This document shows, piece by piece, positions 30,788-54,362 of a stretch of 64,000 nucleotides of DNA (positions are counted from its first letter, which is position 1; each line of letters starts with the position of its first letter). The stretch comes from Nannochloropsis oceanica (lineage: Eukaryota; Sar; Eustigmatophyceae; Eustigmatales; Monodopsidaceae): assembly GCA_004519485.1 (NCBI GenBank), contig CP038108.1:930001-994000 (forward strand), given 5' to 3'. The position numbers and the translations under genes were made by a program. The notes beneath the pieces were generated by a model, which was given only the letters and a program-made list of their open reading frames with translations, made no database searches and had not been told where the DNA came from.

Positions 30788-31472
30788 ATGAGGGAAGAAA
30801 GCGGAGAAGGAGGAGACTTCCAAGTGAAAATTGTTCGTCCCACGGACGTATTGACAAGTGGGCAGAGGGGGGGAAAGGGAGCAAAGAGAATAGAAGAATG
30901 TACATAAACACAAGTAGTAGTAGCAGAGGGGGGGAAAGGGAGCAAAGAGAATAGAAGAATGTACATAAACACAAGTAGTAGGAGAAGAAAAAGGGTCCGG
31001 CGGAATTTCGTAATGTGTTGTGTGTGGGGAAAGACTGTGGTCACGGAGACGGAGGCAATGAGAGGATGAGTGAACGAGTGGTCGAGAGAGGGAAGACGAG
31101 TTGGGGTAGAGTTGCGAATGACGGGCAGCAGCTATCGAAGGGGAAACCCAAGAGAGGGATTGCGGCGGCACCAAGAAATGTACATCTATTTAGATAGAGA
31201 ATGAAAGTAGGAGAGAGTAAGGAACGCGAAAGATGTGGAGGATGGGGGAAAGCGGCGGGAGGTAAATGGGTAAACGAGTTAGTCAGTGTACACACCAGCT
31301 ACCATAAATGAAATCAAGAATCATATCACTCCATACGCTCGTTCTAAAATCACACATATAAAAAATTATGTGCCCTTGCTCTTCTTGCTATCTTCCTCTT
31401 CCTTCACTTTCTGTTGCCATCTTCCCTTCTATAAGTGTCTTTATACAAGAATACTCAATTGTACTTACACAT
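30788..31472. other. Intergenic between convergent genes
   Basis: 3' flanks of the SUMO ligase and the asparagine-synthetase-like gene. Contains a 61-bp tandem duplication (separate entry). No gene seen. Confidence 0.55.
30862..30982. repeat. 61-bp unit duplicated in tandem
   Basis: Copies begin at 30862 and 30923, each starting GCAGAGGGGGGGAAAGGGAG and ending ACAAGTAGTAG. They are almost identical, so the duplication is recent. It lies in the probable 3' flank of the SUMO ligase gene. Confidence 0.9.
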
Positions 31473-43306: not shown

Positions 43307-45556
43307 ATGGCCTCTGCGAACTCCACGAATTCCCTACAAATGGACAAATCTGGCGCCTCCATCAGCAGACCATTGAATGCTGTCGCAGAGAATTCGAATC
43401 GTCTCGCAATGTCCCATCGCAAGAAACTCTCAACAAGGGAAGACGTGCCGCTCGTTCGTGTCCGAAAAGAGGTGAGACTGAGGGAATACGATGACAGCCG
43501 GAGCCAGAGCTATTTCTCCACCTCATATGTCATTCCTTATTTGCAGCGCCAAGAGATCGATGCCATTAAGTATAAAAATGAAGTTTTTCGGCTGGACGCC
43601 ATCCAAGGAACCCGAGAGGCCAAAATCAATGTCAAATCCGGCGCGGCACATGAAGTAGCGCGCCTCCAGGACCAGGCGGAGATGTACTTTCAGCGCATAC
43701 AGGTGGAAAAGGTGTGTGTATATGGAATAAATGTCATTGATACAAGAAAATCACCATTTTCAGACGTATTCCCTTTTGATAACGACAGAGGAAGATTGGG
43801 GAGCTGGAAAAACAGTTGAAGGTCGCCCAGATGAAGGTCCTAGATCAGAAGCAAAGGATGGGCGGTGTGAATGCCTCCAAGGAAAATGACGCCTTGATTG
43901 CCAAGCAGACTCACATCCTTGAGAACCGCCTGGACAAGACCTTGGTCAAATTCAACCAGGCGCTGGCGGAGGTGAGTGCGTGAGTGTGTTTGGGGCTTTC
44001 GCGTGTGGAGGTGTCTATATATGCCACATTTCGCATCATGTTTATGTAGAGCATCTGAGATAAACTAGTCAACCAGCTGTAAGGATCAATCGGCTATATG
44101 CACGCTTACTTAGCGAATTTGTTCTTATACATGCACACATCCGCCATAGAACAAGAGACTCCGAGAGCGCATCGACAGTCTGCGCATGGATCGCGTCGTA
44201 TATGACAGTGTCTACAAGCGGTTAGAGCGCTGCTTGCACGAAAAGAAGAAGGAGATGGGGCTAGTGATTGAAGACGCCAAACGTGTTTGTGTCGCGCGAG
44301 ATAAGGCCAAGAGCGATCTTGTCATCATGAAGCAGCAGGCTGAGAAGGAGAAGGCGGAGTTCGAGCGAGAATGGCGGGAGCTGGGCCGCTTGATTGAGGA
44401 AGATCGACATACGCGGGAAGCAATGAAGAAAAAACTAGAACTGGACCACCGAGGTCAACGACACCAACAGCAATCACGGCTCTCGCCACCTGCTTCCGGC
44501 GGGTCTCTCGGTAGAATCGCGGGCAAGACGGAAAACACTTTCCCAGTGAAAAAGGCCCCTGCTTCAGGAGAAGTTTCCGCCGTCGATGGACCCCCTAACA
44601 TGAACATGCCCAAGGACAAGACAGCCGCCGCTAGCGCGTTTACTTCTTCTGCCACTGTGGTAGCCTCAACCGTGGACCCCCTCCTCTTGCTCTCCCCCGA
44701 AAAACTGCAACTTTACGAGGACGCCTTCGCCAAAGTGCAGGAGGCCACGGGCATTAATGACATTGATGAGATGGTTAATAAGCTTCTCGAGGCGGAGGAG
44801 AAGAACTTTTCGCTGTTTAACTACATTAATGAGCTTAACAACGAGATAGACCAGCTGGAGCTACTGATTGGGGAAAACAGAGTGGAGATGGAGAAGCACA
44901 AGGGCCAAGGCAGCAGCGCTGACACGCAGCAAAAGCGGCTGGCTCGCGTGGGTGCAAACCGTTTACAGCACCTCAAAACTAAGGCCGAAGAGTATGAGCT
45001 GAAATATAGCACGGCCACTAAGACCATCAATCAGCTAAAGACGGGCATCCACGGTATCTTTTCGCGTCTGGGTTGCGCTAGCACTACACCCATGGAAGAG
45101 ATGTTAGGGAACCAAGGTGTCACTGAATCCAATATAATGCAGTACCTGGGCTTTATTGAACAGCGCACGATTGAAATTCTTCAGCTCTACACCGCGAGTC
45201 AGGCCGGTGCCACGGGCTATATTGGGAACACCGGGATTATGGCACTACCGACCTCGTCGCTCGCCACGGTGGAGTCTTCCTCCTTATCGTTGGACAAGTC
45301 ACCGCATGAAAGAGAAGATACACGCGCGTCACCCCCTGCCTCGGCGGGTGATCATCACAATGACGCGAATCCTGAATATGATGAAGCCAGCGCCACTATC
45401 GACGAAGATGACGATAATGACAGCGATGACCGTCCCTTGACGCGGCAGGAGCTGCAAAATAAAGCCCTCAAGCGGTTGAATGTGGGCAACGCGAAGCTGC
45501 GTGATGACAGTAAGGTCATAGGATGTGCGCGAACAGGATCTGGGAGCAGGAAATAA
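43307..45556 (+). CDS. Outer-dynein-arm docking coiled-coil protein (ODA1/CCDC63/CCDC114 type)
   Basis: Four exons (43307-43471, 43547-43711, 43789-43971, 44150-45556), all phase 0, encode about 639 aa. Most of the chain is coiled coil: EIDAIKYKNEVFRLDAIQG, RLQDQAEMYFQRIQVEKRKI, ILENRLDKTLVKFNQALAE and MDRVVYDSVYKRLERCLHEK. The latter resembles the IDxLRxERxxFxxxYxxLE block of ODA docking proteins. The central region LYEDAFAKVQEATGINDIDEMVNKLLEAEEKNFSLFNYINELNNEIDQLE is the strongest match: CCDC114/CCDC63 carry FxKIxxxTGxxDxxxLVxxFxxxExxNFxLFNYVNELNxE. Such proteins dock dynein arms on ciliary doublets. A Ser/Ala-rich linker (about residues 270-345) splits the two coils, and the tail is acidic. 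If the organism is a non-flagellate picoalga this gene is unexpected. Confidence 0.8.
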
Positions 45557-46195: not shown

Positions 46196-47533
46196 TCAGG
46201 GTGCCGCCTTAACCGTCCCCACCGAGCGGCAATATACACATGTACCCCCGATGCCACAATTCGAGGAGCGGTTCCACTGTTCCTGGCATTGAGTATGCAC
46301 AGATTGGCCACACAGCACGCAGTAGGAAAGGGGATCGTGGCTACCATCTTCCTCCAAGATGACTTCGAAGCAAATGGCGCACTCAAGCTCGCTTGTTAAA
46401 AGCTTCTGCGGACCAGGACCCTTGAGATCCGCAGCAGGACGCGCGGTTTCAGCAGCGGCGGCACTTAATGGCTCCAGGCGGAGGTGCGCCAAGCGATCTA
46501 TTTTGAATGTTGTCGAGAATTCATGATTAGGATAGCCAGACCTTCTGTCTGTGACAAACATATGGCAGACTGCAAAGTGCGCGCGCGAATCTTCGACAAA
46601 TGCCCACACAATCTCTTCAGAGATGCAAAACTTTTACGTACCCGAATCGAGCGCGATCGCAAATTCGTCTACCGGGAGGCTTTGGCCAGCCTGCAGCATT
46701 CCTGGCGTCATCCCAAGCACCCGGACTGCCACAAACAACTGAAGTCAAGATAAGAGAGCAGGAGAGGAGACGTTAAAATCGGAGCCTCAGTAAATTCGCT
46801 GAATAAAAGAAACAAGACTTCACAATCATCCACTCCCATTACTTACCTGATGCTTGCATGCATACCGCGATCCTTGTTTTTGGTTGTCTGGGCAACTACA
46901 TGTCCCTACACACTTGCGCTCGACCCCTCCACGACCGCTGTTCACGACCTCGAATTCGACGGTATAGGTGCTCCCCGAGTTGAAGCTTGACACTTGGAAA
47001 GTGCCCGAGGGATTATGCGTGCCCTCCTCTACTAACCCGCGCGTACCACGCAAATCCCCACTAATACAAGCAAAGCGCTGCGACAAGGCACGCACCAGGC
47101 GAGCGTCATTCACCACGGGCCTCTTCTTCTTGCGCGGAGGTCCAGCTCCGCCGCTCCTGTAAGCCGCCCTACCCATGAAAGCTGTCGCACTGGCCGTGCC
47201 ATTGCTGTTTCCGGCAGTTCCTTCTCCACCTCTCCTATCACCGCAAGCAGCTGCCGCCGCATCCAAATACTGCTTCTTCTTGTTTACCCTCTTAGCCCTC
47301 CGGCGGGAGGATGTTTCCATCTCGACATCCCGTGCTATAATTCCATCACCACCCCCACCTCCACCAGCTGCACTTGAAGCAGCGAGTGTACCAACAGCAG
47401 CTGCATCAGTCTCGGCGGTAGCCATAGCAGCACGAGCGGCAGCCCTAATTACCTCTTCTTGCTTCACGGCATGCGTGCGCCCCCTCCTCTCTACCGCTAC
47501 ATCAGTCTCCTCCTCTGTGCCAGCTGCAGTGAT

Positions 47534-47564
<31 letters not shown>

Positions 47565-48802
47565 GTGCCCTCCCCCTCAACGGACCTGCCATTTAAGACC
47601 TGCTCCCCGCGCATTGTCAAACGATAAACCGTCACAAATGCCAGCGCCTCTATCTTCTTCTTGCTCGCCGTTCGCCGACGCCGAGGAGATCCACAGGCCT
47701 TCATCTTCACCCCCTCTTTCCATTCACTTTCTCCCCCTCCCCCCTTCCTCTTGCTTTCCTCCTGCTTTACTTCCCGCTTTTCCTCCTTGATCTCATCCTG
47801 CTTCGCCTCCTTCATCTCCTCTGCAGCCGCCAGCAGTCCCTTGCCCACCGCCCTCGTCACTGAATTATTGATCGGGCCAGTCCGATGCTTGGCAATACCC
47901 AACAACTCAGCCGCATTCTTGTGAATAGCCGGGATGTCTGCCGAACCCCCCTCCGCGAGAACCGCCTTGAGCACCATCAACTCCCATTCGGTCGGCTTGG
48001 CTGGACGCTTCTTTGCCGCTGCCGTGCGCTTGACTGGGAGGAAGACCATCTGTTCATCTTCCTCCTCCTTCTCTTCATTCTTCGAACCCTCCTTTTTCAG
48101 TTTCCGCTTGTTTTTGCCCTTCTTCGCCTTGCCGCTCGCAGACAACGCTGCCACCGCTGCAGCCCTCGCCTCCTCAGCTGTCACATCCCGGTCCTGAGCC
48201 CCTCCTTCCCTTTTCATGTCCACCTTCTCGTCCAAGCCTCGATTCAACTGCCGAATGATTTCAAGGCGTTTCCCTTCTGTCCCTTTCTCGTCATTGATTG
48301 TCAATTGGAAGAAGCTCTCCAGGAGCGACATCTCATCCGCGGGGAGACTTGGAGGGAAGAAGACGCTCCAGTGCTCAAACATGTTGAGGAGGTTTCGGAT
48401 TTGCTGCGGTGTCACGCATTTGAGACAGCTGTGTGATATGAAATTAGAGGAAAAGTGGGATGAGGGAGGGAGAAGATGACTCAGACTGCGAAAGTTAAGC
48501 CGTCCAGCGGCGAAGAGGAAGAAGGAATGCGTGAGGGAAAAGGCACACACAAGCAAAATAGCACCCCTTTGTTCACACAGGACGCTGCCAAGATGGATCT
48601 GATTGTGATACATACTAACGTTCACTCTCGACCCGCCGACACAACACGCGTACCGCCAGAATGTCATCGGTATGCCATTAATTTCTGTGACAGACCCAAA
48701 GCGCCAGCAGCCCTTGGGAATCAGCTTGTTTTCTTTCTCGCAACGACCGTGGCATTGGCTGCGACCCGAACGGGCGTGCTCCAAGGCGAAGAAGTCAGAC
48801 AT
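46196..48802 (-). CDS. zf-PARP / SWIM / RING protein (MEX/ZSWIM2-like E3 ligase candidate)
   Basis: Four exons (48654-48802, 46847-48428, 46642-46738, 46196-46614), all junctions GT-AG and in phase, give about 748 aa. The N-terminus resembles a PARP-type zinc finger: EHARSGRSQCHGRCEKENKL, GCWRFGS, then FWR|CLKCVTPQQI, like the FWRHWGCVT end of zf-PARP with Cys in place of His. The middle (about 120-530) is basic and Ala-rich, with a possible winged-helix stretch (LMVLKAVLAEGGSADIPAIHKNAAELLG). A SWIM zinc finger follows (CVGTCSCPDNQ, RYACKHQ|LFVAVRVLG, about 545-580), split by an intron right after CKHQ. The C-terminus has a RING-type finger (CAICFEVI, CVLCGQSVHTQCQEQW, CVYCRS, about 686-737). 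SWIM followed by RING is the MEX/ZSWIM2 ubiquitin-ligase plan; a PARP-type finger suggests recruitment to DNA breaks (inference). Confidence 0.8.
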
Positions 48803-49979
48803 AATAACTTGCTTGCTGTGGGAGAAGGGATCAGGGGATGGGGAGTGAGGGGCCGGTAAATGTGGGGCATGCTAGGTCAAGTTGCTGTGGATGAATTTTG
48901 GAGGAAGGATCCATTCTGGCATTCAGTGCTCGTAAGACGTGCTACCCACCGCGATCCACCCTATTTTCTCGTCTACGCAATGGCAAGAAACCGGTGGACG
49001 TGGTGGTGCACCGGGTGGATGTGTGGATTATGTGTAAGTGGATGATTGTTAGTCCATTAGAAGGGAGTGGGACGTAGGGAAATCTGTCAACCTTCCTCGC
49101 TGAGCCCCTGCATGCATGAATACAAACACGGTGCAACTTTGACGCCATGAGGACAGAGCGAGCTCTAAGAGCAATGACCGCTGATCCTGTCAATACAGTT
49201 TTGACTTTCATCCTGCGCTCCTCGTCCACCTTTTCTTCGGAGGAAGAAATACAATTTAGCGAAGACAACTCCACCAACACTCCATACAGCCATAATCGCC
49301 ACCACGAAGAGGAGGTTACGGCCTCCTTCCTTTCCTATCCCTCACACATAGGTGCTTCGCTTCCGTACGAACGCCGCCATGCTCACCTGGACCTAATCCA
49401 GAATGCAACAGCTTGTCGGTGTCCCGGCAGCATAGGCGGCGGCTTAGGTAAGAAGGATTTTGTGGTGGAACGTAGTGGATGCACTCATGAGAGGTGATCG
49501 TGTTAATATGCTACCGCTGTGTGCGGAAGCGCTGAGTTAGAGAGAGACAAGCCCCAATCTCATGTACCTCAGTTGGCCTCCTTGGGATGTGTGTGACAAG
49601 GAAGAATATAGAGGCTTCCTTTCTAGCAAGTCGTCCCGTTTTCTCAAGAGTGAAGAGGGGGAAGGGAAGGGGAAGGGGAAGGGGAAGGGGAAGGGGGAGG
49701 GGGAGGAGGGGGAAGGGGGAGGGGGAGGAGGGGGAAGAGGAGGAAGAAAGGGGAAGCCATCCCCGGCATTCCATATCAAGTCTAATTCCAGGTGCACAAG
49801 CAGTCATTCGTTTGGCTTTGAGGAGAAGAGTGTCAAGGTGGTGACAAGCGAGGACACACATTTGACGGAGCTCTTCCTTTTTTCCCGTCAGAAGAAATTT
49901 GGGATGGAGTCAGGCATTAAGATGTGCGAGAACTCTAAGCATGGAGGAATGTTAAGAAGTCGCTCCTGATAAGCTTACA
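48803..49979. other. Intergenic; possible 5' remains of the Fanzor relic and a long purine tract
   Basis: A plus-strand frame from 49147 (ALRAMTADPVNTVLTFILRSSS) faintly recalls the DPGxxTxxT start of a RuvC domain and may be the front of the relic that follows, but this is weak. A purine tract occupies 49652-49756. No intact gene seen. Confidence 0.35.
49652..49756 (+). repeat. About 105-nt uninterrupted purine tract
   Basis: Only G and A on the plus strand, in GGGAA, GGGGA and GGAGGG units. Such a tract can form triplex or G-quadruplex structures. It lies just before the Fanzor relic. Confidence 0.9.
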
Positions 49980-50500
49980 TGTGCCATGAAGAAGAAGATC
50001 GATGGCATCCGGGGAAGAATGGTAGCCATGGAGAGAGAAGCGGCGCGAGAGGAGAAAATGGGGGAGAATCGGGAAAAGAGTAGAAGCCTGCGACGGGAGA
50101 TTAAGTAAGTTACCAAGGCTTGGTACCGCGCAAATGAGAGAGCCAGCAATGTGGTAAGCGATCTCCATTTCAAGACGACCGCCTTTCTCTTTCAACGGTT
50201 TGATGTAATCATCGCTCCGAAATTGGGTGTGGGGAGGATGTTAGGGGGGACGAGTATTCTGACGGCTGGGACCAAGTAGACGACGCGTTTCCAGTGGCAT
50301 AGCTCTTCAACAAGCGTATCAGGATGATGGCCGAGGTATGTAGGAGGGTCGTGTTGGATCTGGAGGAGCATGGCACGAGGCAGACGTGCAGCTCTTGCGG
50401 TCTGGTCAACGAGGGGTTAGAGGGCAGCAAAGTTTTAAAGTGTGAACGTTGCGGATACAATAAAGACTGGGAAATAATTCTGCCAAGGGCCACTAGTTGA
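49980..50500 (+). mobile_element. Fanzor (eukaryotic TnpB-like RNA-guided nuclease) relic, C-terminal part
   Basis: Three stretches in the right order match the C-terminal half of Fanzor/TnpB proteins. (1) From about 49987, MKKKIDGIRGRMVAMEREAA with a basic helical continuation, like the helical segment between RuvC parts. (2) From 50142, SNVVSDLHFKTTAFLFQRFD then VIIAPKLGVGRM, like the ELHxKxAxxLxxxFDxVxxPxF block that holds the second RuvC acid. (3) From about 50300, LFNKRIRMMAEV, RRVVLDLEEHGTRQTC, SSCGLVNEGLEGSKVLKCERCG, the zinc ribbon preceded by the usual E-x-x-T-S-x-x-C position. The final DRDxNGARNI is only vestigial. The reading frame is broken in at least two places, so this is a dead copy. 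Segments 1 and 2 can be linked by a putative 36-nt intron. No terminal repeats identified; the element's 5' limit is uncertain. Fanzors ride in DNA transposons and large DNA viruses; which carrier is unknown. Confidence 0.6.
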
Positions 50501-51089
50501 AAGCACTCGTTGGTTGGAGGGATCATATAGTATAGTGTCGTTGTTTGCCCCATAACGCTTTTTCGTGAGCATTTTATTTGAAGTCAGGTAGGTGCGTGGT
50601 GCCTGTCCTACAAATGGATGTTCAAGAAAAGGTAAATAACTGTTACGATGATTGCCCAGTATTCCATTTAGGGTATCAAACAAGCCATTTTGGTCTTCCT
50701 TTCCTCTATCCTCCTTTTCCTTCCCTCTTTCGTTTGACGCGATTTATTCAGCCCAAAGCATTTTATTCCAATAGATACGGGCATACAAAGAATCCCGAGT
50801 CATCAATGGTAGCCTGAGCGTCATTCATGAATGAAAAGTCATCAAAGCATTGATGACCCATTGGTGACCTCCCACCATGGTGACGGCACTGGCGAGGAGG
50901 GTTTGCGGTGATGTAATGAATACCCTCATGCACACACACCCCTTCCCATATTCTCAGCTTCTCTCCCCCTTTCCTTTCTCATCACTCATCTCTATATACA
51001 GGTCTTCATGACCCCCAATCATTGAAGTGGCCGAAATTCCTCTCACTCGGCCCGCGGCCCGTGTCCTCTGCCCCCTCTGTGGTCTGTCC
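50501..51089. other. Intergenic plus possible leader of SPOUT gene
   Basis: Downstream flank of the Fanzor relic. Around 50815-50890 there are short self-complementary words (CATCAA/TTGATG, TGGTGAC/ACCATGGTGAC) which could fold. The right end (51028-51089) is open in frame with the following gene. Confidence 0.35.
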
Positions 51090-52214
51090 ATGGAGGGCAA
51101 TGCCGCCAACCGTTGTGCCCATCGTCCGCGCGCTCGCAGGGACAAGGAGCCGAAGCAGCAAGAGCGGAAGGCCAGAAACACTTCGACGAACAAGAAGCGC
51201 AAGCACCCGGACGCTGCCGCTGCTGCTGCCACTGCTGGTGCTCCATCCGCCCCCGCTGCGGAGCTCGTGCCCCGCCATTATACAGTCTCGATTGCAGTGG
51301 CGGGCTCGATTGTGCTGAACGCCCAGTCGCCCGAGTTGCGGACGTACTTGATAGGTGAAATTGCACGTGCAGCGGCCATCTTTCAGGTGGATGAGATCGT
51401 CGTATTTGCAGACGCTTCGGGCGCGGGGGCGTCGTACAATTGGGGCGATCCCAATCTCTTCTTCGGTCGTCTTTTGCAGTACATTGAGACGCCACAGTAC
51501 CTCCGGAAGGCTATCTTTCCCCACCACTCTGATCTGCGCTTTGCCGGATTGCTCAACCCCCTGGATGCGCCTCATCATCCACGTGCACACGAACAGATGG
51601 TGTATCGAGAGGGCGTGACGGTCGATACACCTGCCAGTATCTCAGGAGGCTCCCTTGTCAATGTTGGCCTGCGGAACTACATCCACCTCGACCGGCGCCT
51701 CAAGCCCGGCGTCCGTGTCACGGTGAAGATGACCTCGGCTGCTTCTTCATCTGGATCATCACGCAAGCACCAAGCTTCCCCACAACAAGAGATGGAGGGC
51801 GTGGCCGTCTCCCCCGAGGCGCCCCGCGAAACACACGGCCTCTACTGGGGCTACACAACCCGCCTAGCCAAAAGCCTGACCGAGGTCTTTGCCGGAAGCC
51901 CTTACAAAGAGGGATACGACTTGACGGTGGGTACGTCAGAGAGGGGACATCAGAGCATTGATGACGAGGATTTTGCTTTGCCAGCTTTTCGGCACCTGTT
52001 GGTTGTGTTTGGGGGGGTAGCGGGCCTGGAAGCGTGTGTCGAGGCAGCGGAGGATTTGGATCTGCCTGCGGGCAAGACACACACGCTGTTTGACAAATGG
52101 TTGAATGTGTGCCCAGACCAGGGCAGTCGCACCATTCGAACGGAGGAGGCAGTGCCTATTACCATGGCGAGGTTGCGCCCTTTCATTGTCAAGAGCGGAC
52201 GGAGGGAGAAGTAA
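51090..52214 (+). CDS. SPOUT-fold RNA methyltransferase (C9orf114/SPOUT1 family)
   Basis: Putative SAM-dependent RNA methyltransferase with the trefoil-knot SPOUT fold; the animal member SPOUT1/CENP-32 acts in mitosis and RNA methylation. From the first ATG at 51090: 374 aa. Lys/Arg-rich N-terminus (nuclear-type), then YTVSIAVAGSIVLNAQSPELRTYLIGEIARAA, VDEIVVFADAS, FFGRLLQYIETPQYLRKAIFP, LRFAGLLNPLDAPHHPR, YREGVTVD, LVNVGLRNYIHLDRRLKPGVRVTVKM, HGLYWGYTTRLAKSLTEVF, YDLTVGTSERG, HLLVVFGGVAGLEACVEAAEDL, FDKWLNVCPDQGSRTIRTEEA. The knot signature (GTSERG..., FGG..GLE, NVCPDQGSRTIRTEEA) is complete. The frame is open upstream to 51012 (VAEIPLTRPAARVLCPLCGL), so translation may start in an earlier exon: an AG just before 51028 would let an upstream A complete an ATG. 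The start is therefore uncertain. Confidence 0.87.
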   Translation: MEGNAANRCAHRPRARRDKEPKQQERKARNTSTNKKRKHPDAAAAAATAGAPSAPAAELVPRHYTVSIAVAGSIVLNAQSPELRTYLIGEIARAAAIFQVDEIVVFADASGAGASYNWGDPNLFFGRLLQYIETPQYLRKAIFPHHSDLRFAGLLNPLDAPHHPRAHEQMVYREGVTVDTPASISGGSLVNVGLRNYIHLDRRLKPGVRVTVKMTSAASSSGSSRKHQASPQQEMEGVAVSPEAPRETHGLYWGYTTRLAKSLTEVFAGSPYKEGYDLTVGTSERGHQSIDDEDFALPAFRHLLVVFGGVAGLEACVEAAEDLDLPAGKTHTLFDKWLNVCPDQGSRTIRTEEAVPITMARLRPFIVKSGRREK

Positions 52215-52281: not shown

Positions 52282-53346
52282 TTATTGAGTGCTTGAAGAA
52301 GCTTTCGCAAGAAGATCCACCAACTCACGGCCATAAATGAAGGCGGCATTCCCCGCAATTGCCCTCCGGACCTCCAGCGCTTTTCTCACCGTCGGCTCCA
52401 TCCCCTCCACTTCCTCTTTCTTTTTTTCCTCCTCCATCGGTGGAGCAATTCCTTCCACAAGCCCTATACATCTCCCTTCATCCCTTAAATCCAACAAAGG
52501 GGCACCACACATCCCATCACCCAATTCACGGTCCATGACAGCAAAGCCACGGCTGTGTCGGTCCTTGTACTTATTCACCGTGCCCATACTCACACACAGT
52601 CGACGGGGCTCCTCGTCTGCTTTCAGATCTAAATGTACCGTCTTGCCAGTATCGGAGTCTTCAAGTATCCCGGCAGTGTTGTTGTCGTAGTTGTTGTCAT
52701 GGGCACTGCCTATTCCCTTTCCTTCGCGCTCCACTGCAAAACCTGGCGAGACCACGGGATGACCCGGCGCGGGTACGTTGCTGCCCAGTACAAGGGGCTC
52801 AAGTCGCAGTCCATACTTGGCCATCTGCCGTATGGCATATTCTTGATTCTGAAGTCGAAGCACACACACGTCTAGCGAGTCATGGTGGACGACGGTGGGC
52901 TGTAGTAGGAATCGCTTCACTACCGGGCCCCTCCTCCCATCTGTTACATGCAGCGTGCACAGGGTGTGTTCCTCTTTCACGTACTCCAGCCATGGCAACG
53001 GGTAAAGTTTTGGCCAGCGCCAGGGTGCCGTCACATGTGAGCAGGTGAAGAAATAGAGGGGAACATTTGCTGCTTCGACAGGGCTCGTGCTGCCTCCTTT
53101 CCCTGCAGGCGGGTGCACGCAAAAGGCCGTGCCTCGACTGAGCATTTCGTACCGCATCATGCCTTGGTCAGGCAGTTGGAACCAGGAAGTGATAGAGACA
53201 CTCATGCGATGTAATGGTAAGGTAGCACCGCTGCTATTGCTGGTGCTCAAGGCGCGGCGGGCTGCCATGGTCCTGTGTGTGGGGGGTGCATTCGCGGGAA
53301 GGAGGTTGGATGCAAAGACCGGGTTCCCATTTGTACTGAGCCACAT
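52282..53346 (-). CDS. Trypsin-fold protease paralogue with Cys at the nucleophile position
   Basis: Single exon, 354 aa. Chymotrypsin-like layout: RGTAFCV, then FTCSHVTAPWRWP with the catalytic-type His, HHDSLDVCVLRL with the Asp, and DRELGDGMCGAPLLDLRDEG, where the usual GMSGGP Ser is Cys. Its divergent neighbour is clearly a paralogue, sharing PDQGM.(R/E)YE.LSRGTAFC, CSHV.AP and PWL..V..EH. The first 50 residues include MAARRALSTSNSSGATLPLHRM, which looks like a mitochondrial presequence although it follows 26 other residues. A long insert (residues about 185-245) has His/Asn/Asp-rich linkers. Cys nucleophiles occur in viral 3C-like proteases of this fold, so activity is possible, but loss of the second Gly (GA for GG) may mean a pseudoenzyme. 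It starts 158 bp from its partner. Confidence 0.75.
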   Translation of the reverse strand: MWLSTNGNPVFASNLLPANAPPTHRTMAARRALSTSNSSGATLPLHRMSVSITSWFQLPDQGMMRYEMLSRGTAFCVHPPAGKGGSTSPVEAANVPLYFFTCSHVTAPWRWPKLYPLPWLEYVKEEHTLCTLHVTDGRRGPVVKRFLLQPTVVHHDSLDVCVLRLQNQEYAIRQMAKYGLRLEPLVLGSNVPAPGHPVVSPGFAVEREGKGIGSAHDNNYDNNTAGILEDSDTGKTVHLDLKADEEPRRLCVSMGTVNKYKDRHSRGFAVMDRELGDGMCGAPLLDLRDEGRCIGLVEGIAPPMEEEKKKEEVEGMEPTVRKALEVRRAIAGNAAFIYGRELVDLLAKASSSTQ

Positions 53347-53504
53347 AACGCCCGACAGCTCGCTTCCCAGACATCATGTATGTGCTATCTGCTCTCGTGA
53401 TACAGGCACGACAGGGCCTAGAGGCTTAACCTCCCGATGAATTGCTCACATGCCAAGTATCATCCCACTTAACTCATCCACACGAGGGAAAGGTTAACGT
53501 ACGT
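53347..53504. promoter_or_regulatory. 158-bp divergent spacer between protease paralogues
   Basis: The two paralogues start back to back here, so a shared promoter is nearly unavoidable. No specific motif named. Confidence 0.5.
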
Positions 53505-54362
53505 ATGCCATGGACCAAGACAAGACCCCTAGCCAAGCAGTTCCGCAGTGTTGTTAGCGTCTCGTCACATTTCAAGGTCCCAGATCAAGGCATGACGGAG
53601 TACGAGCTGCTCAGCCGGGGCACTGCCTTTTGCCTCTCCCAACCTGGCCCTCTTCCTTCTGCTCCTGAAGTCGTCCTCGTAACCTGCTCCCACGTCCTGG
53701 CACCCTATAAATGGCGACAGCATTTTAAAGAACCGTGGCTTGACTTTGTAAATGACGAGCACGTCGAGTACCGAATTCAGGCGTGGAAACAGGAGGAGAG
53801 CGACCCCAGCAGAATTCAGCTGGGTGCCGAGACGAGGGTGTACGGCAAGTCAGTTCACCACCATAGTCTAGACTTATGTATGCTACCTATACATAAGAAT
53901 ACAGTAGATGCATATGAATTACTATCATTGGAGGACAGGGACCAACAAGAGCCCCTTGCAGAGGGCGAGGAATTGACATTTCTAGGCTTTCCCTCCGCCA
54001 TAAACTGTCCTGGCGAGGAACAGCGCGAGAAGCTTGGCGTGCTAACCCCACGTCGAGTGCAAGGGCGGGCGCTCGCATCGATCCGCGACAAACAGGGTCG
54101 AACTTATGCCAAGACAGAAGAGAGACTGACGGTGGGCATGAGTGGTGGGCCGGTGGTCGATCGGCACGGGCGATGTTGCGGCATCTTTCAAGGCATTCTG
54201 CCCCCGCCGCCTCAATCCCCCGCAGAAGAAGAGGCGCAAGCCGCCTGTGACCTCGACCCTACGCTTCGGTCACTTCAAGTAGAAGAATGGGAACGGCATG
54301 CCGGGTTCATCCCCCTGACGGCTGTCCGTGCATTTCTTGAAATTAATTTAGTCAAATATTGA
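53505..54362 (+). CDS. Trypsin-fold serine protease with complete catalytic triad
   Basis: Single exon, 285 aa from the first ATG at 53505; the open frame extends a little upstream without ATG. Catalytic residues: VLVTCSHVLAPYKW (His), HHHSLDLCMLPI (Asp) and LTVGMSGGPVVDRHGRCCG (Ser with intact oxyanion loop). The rest fits a compact two-barrel S1/S7-like fold: ELLSRGTAFCL, ELTFLGFPSAI, RVQGRALASI and GFIPLTAVRAFLEI. There is no signal peptide; the start MPWTKTRPLAKQFRSVVSV is basic and could direct it to mitochondria. It is a divergent, back-to-back paralogue of the Cys-bearing gene on the other strand, arising from an inverted duplication. Substrate unknown. It lacks a PDZ domain, so it is not a classical Deg/HtrA. 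Confidence 0.8.
   Translation: MPWTKTRPLAKQFRSVVSVSSHFKVPDQGMTEYELLSRGTAFCLSQPGPLPSAPEVVLVTCSHVLAPYKWRQHFKEPWLDFVNDEHVEYRIQAWKQEESDPSRIQLGAETRVYGKSVHHHSLDLCMLPIHKNTVDAYELLSLEDRDQQEPLAEGEELTFLGFPSAINCPGEEQREKLGVLTPRRVQGRALASIRDKQGRTYAKTEERLTVGMSGGPVVDRHGRCCGIFQGILPPPPQSPAEEEAQAACDLDPTLRSLQVEEWERHAGFIPLTAVRAFLEINLVKY

Follow-up and report, generated by a model that had tools for sequence, protein, structure and literature searches.

We identified, in an intergenic spacer of the window (the whole 64,000-nt stretch of DNA that was analysed), a remnant at 50109-50500 on the plus strand that is very probably a pseudogene fragment holding the C-terminal RuvC-II, zinc-ribbon and RuvC-III part of a Fanzor-type nuclease. 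Here, Fanzor-type refers to the clade of the TnpB family with DPG and an alternative glutamate (Ealt), a pairing described as the fingerprint of Fanzors and cyanobacterial pro-Fanzors (Yoon et al. 2023, PMC10711439); Fanzor1 and Fanzor2 are not told apart for the remnant. The original prediction of a dead Fanzor-type gene in this spacer is supported by homology, by block order, by the kept glutamate and four cysteines, and by the breaks in the frame (Table 1), and the two peptides that it quoted, DLHFKTTAFLFQRFDVIIAPKL and QTCSSCG...LKCERCG, were both found where it had placed them.

Table 1. Parts of the putative Fanzor-type remnant
Feature	Position	Strand	Reading frame	Evidence
RuvC-II block (P0002)	50109..50276	+	Open throughout, TAG at end	Viral Fanzor-like profile; 25-sequence profile; BLASTP to L124; frameshift-tolerant profile
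Break: in-frame stop closing P0002, then frame change ahead of P0003	50277..50302	+		Frames; frameshift-tolerant alignment
Zinc ribbon CxxC...CxxC, ExxxxxxC alternative Glu, KD for RuvC-III RD (P0003)	50303..50500	+	Differs from that of P0002; open 50303-50497, stop at end (50500)	PF07282; pro-Fanzor profile; L79 chain; Ealt pattern

Homology to Fanzor-type proteins

Among the 1827 six-frame ORFs of 20 aa or more in the window, a profile of 15 pro-Fanzors placed P0003 first (3e-10) and P0002 second (0.032), with matches at profile positions 421-477 and 355-397, respectively; the two ORFs are adjacent, on the same strand and collinear. Five further reference sets were aligned without the remnant and without L79, a mimivirus TnpB-like protein. 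The profile search that had been proposed as a check matched both blocks significantly, with 25 Fanzor-type references giving 1.2e-10 (37.8 bits) for P0003 and 3.2e-8 (29.9 bits) for P0002, and 0.38 for the next ORF. The corresponding values were 2.9e-8 (30.0 bits) and 4.5e-9 (32.7 bits) with 14 viral Fanzor-like references, which likewise set the two blocks well apart from all other ORFs in the window, and 1.1e-10 and 1.4e-4 (18.2 bits) with 11 pro-Fanzors. A frameshift-tolerant alignment to the 25-sequence profile scored 129.7 at 50115-50470, with one stop and one frameshift, while the best score anywhere else in the window, both strands included, was 50.3; 40 window-length random sequences of nearest-neighbour make-up, read on one strand, gave a mean of 45.5 (sd 3.8, max 53.9). 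Across 1000 shuffles of each piece, P0003 reached 8.0 bits at best and P0002 reached 5.7, compared with 40.3 and 31.5 for the real pieces, the maxima being taken from the copies that HMMER reported (818 and 712) and the profile from an alignment that included the remnant.

Within P0002, detectable homology runs from about 50112 to 50246 and comprises a helix with DLHFKTTAFL, the strand FDVIIAPKL, and GRM. Its closest single relative is the viral-contig protein L124 (43% over 49 aa, BLASTP E 1.5e-10 in a small reference set). The one PDB match up to E 10, a weak one, is to residues 387-427 of L79 (9b0l; E 0.67), and PHROGs returned no match to P0002.

P0003 keeps all four zinc-ribbon cysteines as well as the alternative glutamate, six residues before the first of them, in the pattern ExxxxxxCxxC...CxxCx(4)D. 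Pfam places PF07282 (Cas12f1-like_TNB) on this ORF at E 8e-8, its 32.8 bits exceeding the cut-off of 26.3; the remaining 12 Pfam families listed all fell below their cut-offs. In the PDB, the top match to P0003 is again L79 (9b0l; residues 447-499, E 3.5e-4), chains annotated as OrfB or transposase come next (E 0.0013 to 0.012), and in PHROGs two transposase families matched weakly (0.0012 and 0.0021). The best single relative of P0003 is L039 (38% over 58 aa).

Decay of the copy and competing readings

The expectation of a broken copy was borne out. Both the stop and the frame change fall within the Fanzor homology, as judged by the frames and by the frameshift-tolerant alignment, and RuvC-I is not detectable: with the first 80-90 profile columns, the best plus-strand score over 48-50.1 kb was 27.0, in a window where noise reaches 41.9. 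Columns 1-90 scored 26.9 at 49300-50135, a value equalled or beaten in 154 of 200 random sequences. A DPG-like SSLIPGAQAVI near 49790, spotted by eye, did not rise above noise. Given the lack of a RuvC-I signal, the remnant is classed as derived from a Fanzor-type gene and not as a working Fanzor. No uninterrupted frame carrying the D-E-D triad is present (stop, frame change, first D not found), and the copy looks dead; judged from its reading frames, the broken frame and the loss of the first catalytic residue should leave the fragment unable to cut DNA under RNA guidance, and it would be non-functional.

The original prediction had three Fanzor blocks in order; its RuvC-II block and zinc ribbon stood, and its helical spacer at 49980-50108 did not. 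The ORF concerned (P0001, 49956-50108, plus strand) drew no support from Pfam, NCBIfam, Fanzor profiles or BLASTP. Its top Pfam match was Ski2_N (E 0.072, 13.3 bits against a cut-off of 23.1), no NCBIfam model matched it, and it scored -0.3 bits even with a Fanzor profile made from an alignment that included the remnant.

That the zinc ribbon might belong to an unrelated family had been raised with the original prediction, and the databases answer in part: Pfam and the PDB favour the TnpB family, while none of the 10 NCBIfam models listed reaches its cut-off. Sub-cut-off NCBIfam matches to a rubredoxin-like model (0.0098), to eL43 (0.042) and to guided_TnpB (0.05) are about level, and the PDB holds ribosomal (eL43) and polymerase (RPB12-like) zinc ribbons that match P0003 weakly, at E 0.12 or worse. 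An ORF that resembles a zinc ribbon by chance, or a piece of some other protein with such a ribbon (eL43, rubredoxin-like or an RNA polymerase subunit), would nevertheless have to account for far stronger matches to Pfam TNB and to PDB chains of the TnpB family, and for an upstream block that matches Fanzors independently and in the right order. With the NCBIfam models level, it is this independent RuvC-II match that settles the TnpB/Fanzor reading, and the probability of a chance or unrelated ribbon is negligible, the idea being refuted as far as sequence can refute it. Derivation of the remnant from a bacterial-type TnpB, whether canonical or of a D-Leu-G type with Ealt, that had been taken up from a prokaryote or a virus is improbable, though several features fit it: the RuvC-I block with DPG, which parts Fanzors from other Ealt proteins, is missing, and Ealt proteins with D-hydrophobic-G in place of DPG have also been described (PMC10711439). 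All five D-Leu-G TnpBs from viral contigs used as references carry Ealt, and retention of this glutamate is therefore not enough by itself to mark the remnant as a Fanzor. Moreover, the zinc ribbon discriminates poorly by itself, since P0003 scores 29.9 bits (4.3e-8) with the profile of canonical TnpBs and 30.0 with that of viral Fanzors; the D-Leu-G profile gives it 21.4 bits (1.5e-5). It is the RuvC-II block that speaks for the Fanzor type, because P0002 falls from 32.7 bits with viral Fanzors to 7.3 (0.34) with the five D-Leu-G TnpBs and 6.0 (1.0) with the canonical TnpBs, the latter profile being of three sequences after two of five intended references failed a motif cut. In addition, the place of the canonical TnpB glutamate in P0002 reads IIAPKL, without a glutamate.

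If the remnant is of Fanzor type, its breaks could in turn be read as those of a living, intron-bearing gene, with the stop and frame change spliced out and RuvC-I encoded by an exon farther upstream. Eukaryotic Fanzor genes can contain introns, and inspection by eye shows GTAAGT at 50105-50110 and AG dinucleotides upstream of both blocks. However, merely 26 bases separate the blocks, a conserved Trp can still be aligned inside them, and by eye a frame-joining intron would be shorter than about 75 bases and would remove conserved residues. This gap, together with the want of any visible RuvC-I exon, makes a living gene very improbable, and the altered RD of RuvC-III also counts against it. Slimmer still is the chance that the zinc-ribbon ORF, whole or from an ATG within it, survives as a small protein of the host, a domesticated nucleic-acid-binding fragment of a Fanzor; were this true, domestication would explain the survival of the cysteines and the Ealt glutamate amid an otherwise broken gene.

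The spacer and its surroundings

Many eukaryotic jumping genes carry a Fanzor, whose guide RNA is made from the end of the element and whose cutting of matching DNA favours persistence of the element. For the dead Fanzor-type gene described here, a transposable element may once have inserted between two host genes, leaving a Fanzor gene whose RuvC-I part would since have been lost or have decayed past recognition. Delivery by a transposon is plausible on this account. Regarding element ends, none of the 19 inverted pairs listed suits the remnant (by eye), the direct repeats around it include nothing convincing, and no Helitron-like end (hairpin plus CTRR) was found, against a mean of 0.23 in 100 random sequences. 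A search for a guide RNA gave no Rfam match at E<=1 over 46-54 kb, and the 3' flank at 50440-50640 folds no better than shuffled sequence (z -0.22). Run on a single copy, these searches for ends and guide RNA are a weak test; sister copies, if present in the same assembly, would reveal both. Downstream of the remnant, an inverted pair, GTCATCAATG/CATTGATGAC, with 39 nt between its arms, occupies 50799-50857, and a near copy of 50840-50857 occurs at 51948-51965, inside the neighbouring methyltransferase gene.

The spacer lies between an ORF at 46826-48871 (minus strand) with a sub-threshold zf-PARP match and an RNA methyltransferase gene at 51012-52214 (plus strand; PF02598, E 8.7e-104). It had been described as holding no other gene, and all 28 other ORFs of at least 40 aa at 48860-51011 indeed lack a Pfam match above cut-off; the strongest match below it is EBNA2_Core (E 5.5e-4, 19.7 of 35 bits), on an ORF that translates a purine tract. 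This tract, likewise reported in the original prediction, is 105 nt long (49652-49756) and is the longest purine/pyrimidine run in the window, the next being 50. It lies about 350 nt upstream of the remnant, nothing links the two, and many shorter tracts of this kind occur elsewhere in the window.

The genes of the window are eukaryotic in kind (Cpn60_TCP1, ODAD1 and ENTH), and an ochrophyte host, as the original prediction had it, is plausible. GC content ranges from 0.478 to 0.565 per 2 kb, which fits the 53.8% of N. oceanica without being diagnostic of it. An ORF at 44150-45556 (plus strand) encodes a coiled-coil domain of ODAD1 type (outer dynein arm docking; E 2.6e-55), which would point to motile cilia in the host, at present or in the recent past. 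Two divergent neighbouring ORFs, at 52282-53373 (minus strand) and 53430-54362 (plus strand), each carry a Trypsin_2 peptidase domain and look like a duplication. At 30862-30988, a 61-nt unit is repeated in tandem (2.1 copies, 96% matches).

Relation to known Fanzors and their relatives

Fanzors were reported from stramenopiles in 2013, with one Fanzor1 in Nannochloropsis oceanica given in Table 1 of Bao and Jurka (PMC3627910), and a Fanzor in an endogenous Ectocarpus virus is mentioned in a 2026 paper (PMC13236599). Because stramenopile Fanzors, one of them from N. oceanica, were on record by 2013, the remnant is less surprising than first held: Fanzors in stramenopiles and their viruses are already known, and it is an ordinary transposon fossil. 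The motif that Bao and Jurka give for these proteins, D-X(125,275)-[TS][TS]xx-C4-X(5,50)-RD (PMC3627910), is partly recognisable in the remnant, with the C4 finger and one [TS] present, T-R in place of the [TS][TS] pair ahead of the finger (the second [TS] being Arg), the first D not found, and RD reading KD. RNA-guided DNA cutting has been described for Fanzor proteins (Saito et al., PMC10432273). The remnant alone says nothing new on how Fanzors work; its contribution is one more fossil insertion among the Fanzor genes recorded from alga-like genomes.

Querying phage records with P0003 by tblastn (best E 3e-5) led to P0004, a protein of Microcoleus phage My-WqHQDG whose RuvC-I carries DPG and whose zinc finger is preceded, at a distance of six residues, by a glutamate. 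By BLASTP, P0004 aligns with P0003 at 41% over 51 aa (E 1e-11) and with P0002 at 26% over 43 aa (E 4e-5), and gave no alignment with P0001. From P0004, 35 loci were obtained in genome contigs (33 cyanobacterial and two from Myxococcota). In viral contigs, four scans found 1, 10, 66 and 54 loci, many of them on the same contigs; scans of viral contigs with P0002 alone and with P0003 alone found no close relatives. In a tree of 32 sequences, whose rows include no eukaryotic Fanzor1 known by name, the remnant falls on the Fanzor-type side of a Fanzor/TnpB branch with support of 92/85, below the starred level. Its own branch is very long (3.91), and no starred set includes it. Since L79 has both DPG and Ealt yet falls on the TnpB side, this branch is no clean divide and constitutes weak evidence.

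The viral-contig relatives show a pattern of their own in the zinc ribbon. Loss of its cysteines is seen in the Fanzor-like DPG proteins L116, L117, L119, L120, L128, L137, L141 and L149, and also in L121, L124, L126, L127, L133, L134 and L147. TSKT occurs in 39 of 42 viral-contig ORFs, and within 45 aa eight of these have no cysteine and seven have one. The cysteine-poor ribbons (e.g. TSKTVSWTGE...) retain TSKT and RD, and L116 and L124 pass Pfam TNB despite the loss.

Compared with known systems, the remnant may share its host, or a related one, with the Nannochloropsis oceanica Fanzor1 (NOc, PMC3627910), a likeness drawn from that paper's listing and not from sequence. The mimivirus protein L79 (9b0l) matches both of the remnant's blocks collinearly but is more distant and groups with the TnpB rows. 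The cyanobacterial pro-Fanzors (L001, L004-L038), a group described in PMC10711439, resemble the remnant in Ealt and in a zinc ribbon near KLGGSKVFKCPxCG; they are bacterial or phage sequences, however, and their RuvC-II is less alike than that of the viral set. Descent of the remnant from a cyanobacterial pro-Fanzor, which shares its RuvC-II and glutamate traits, may nonetheless be envisaged. Viral-contig Fanzor-like proteins (L124, L116, L115 and L039) have the same block order and Ealt glutamate as the remnant, but have open frames with a DPGVRTF RuvC-I, whereas the remnant has breaks, lacks RuvC-I and carries KD for RD. Conversely, the zinc cysteines that the remnant keeps are mostly or entirely gone from L124 and L116.
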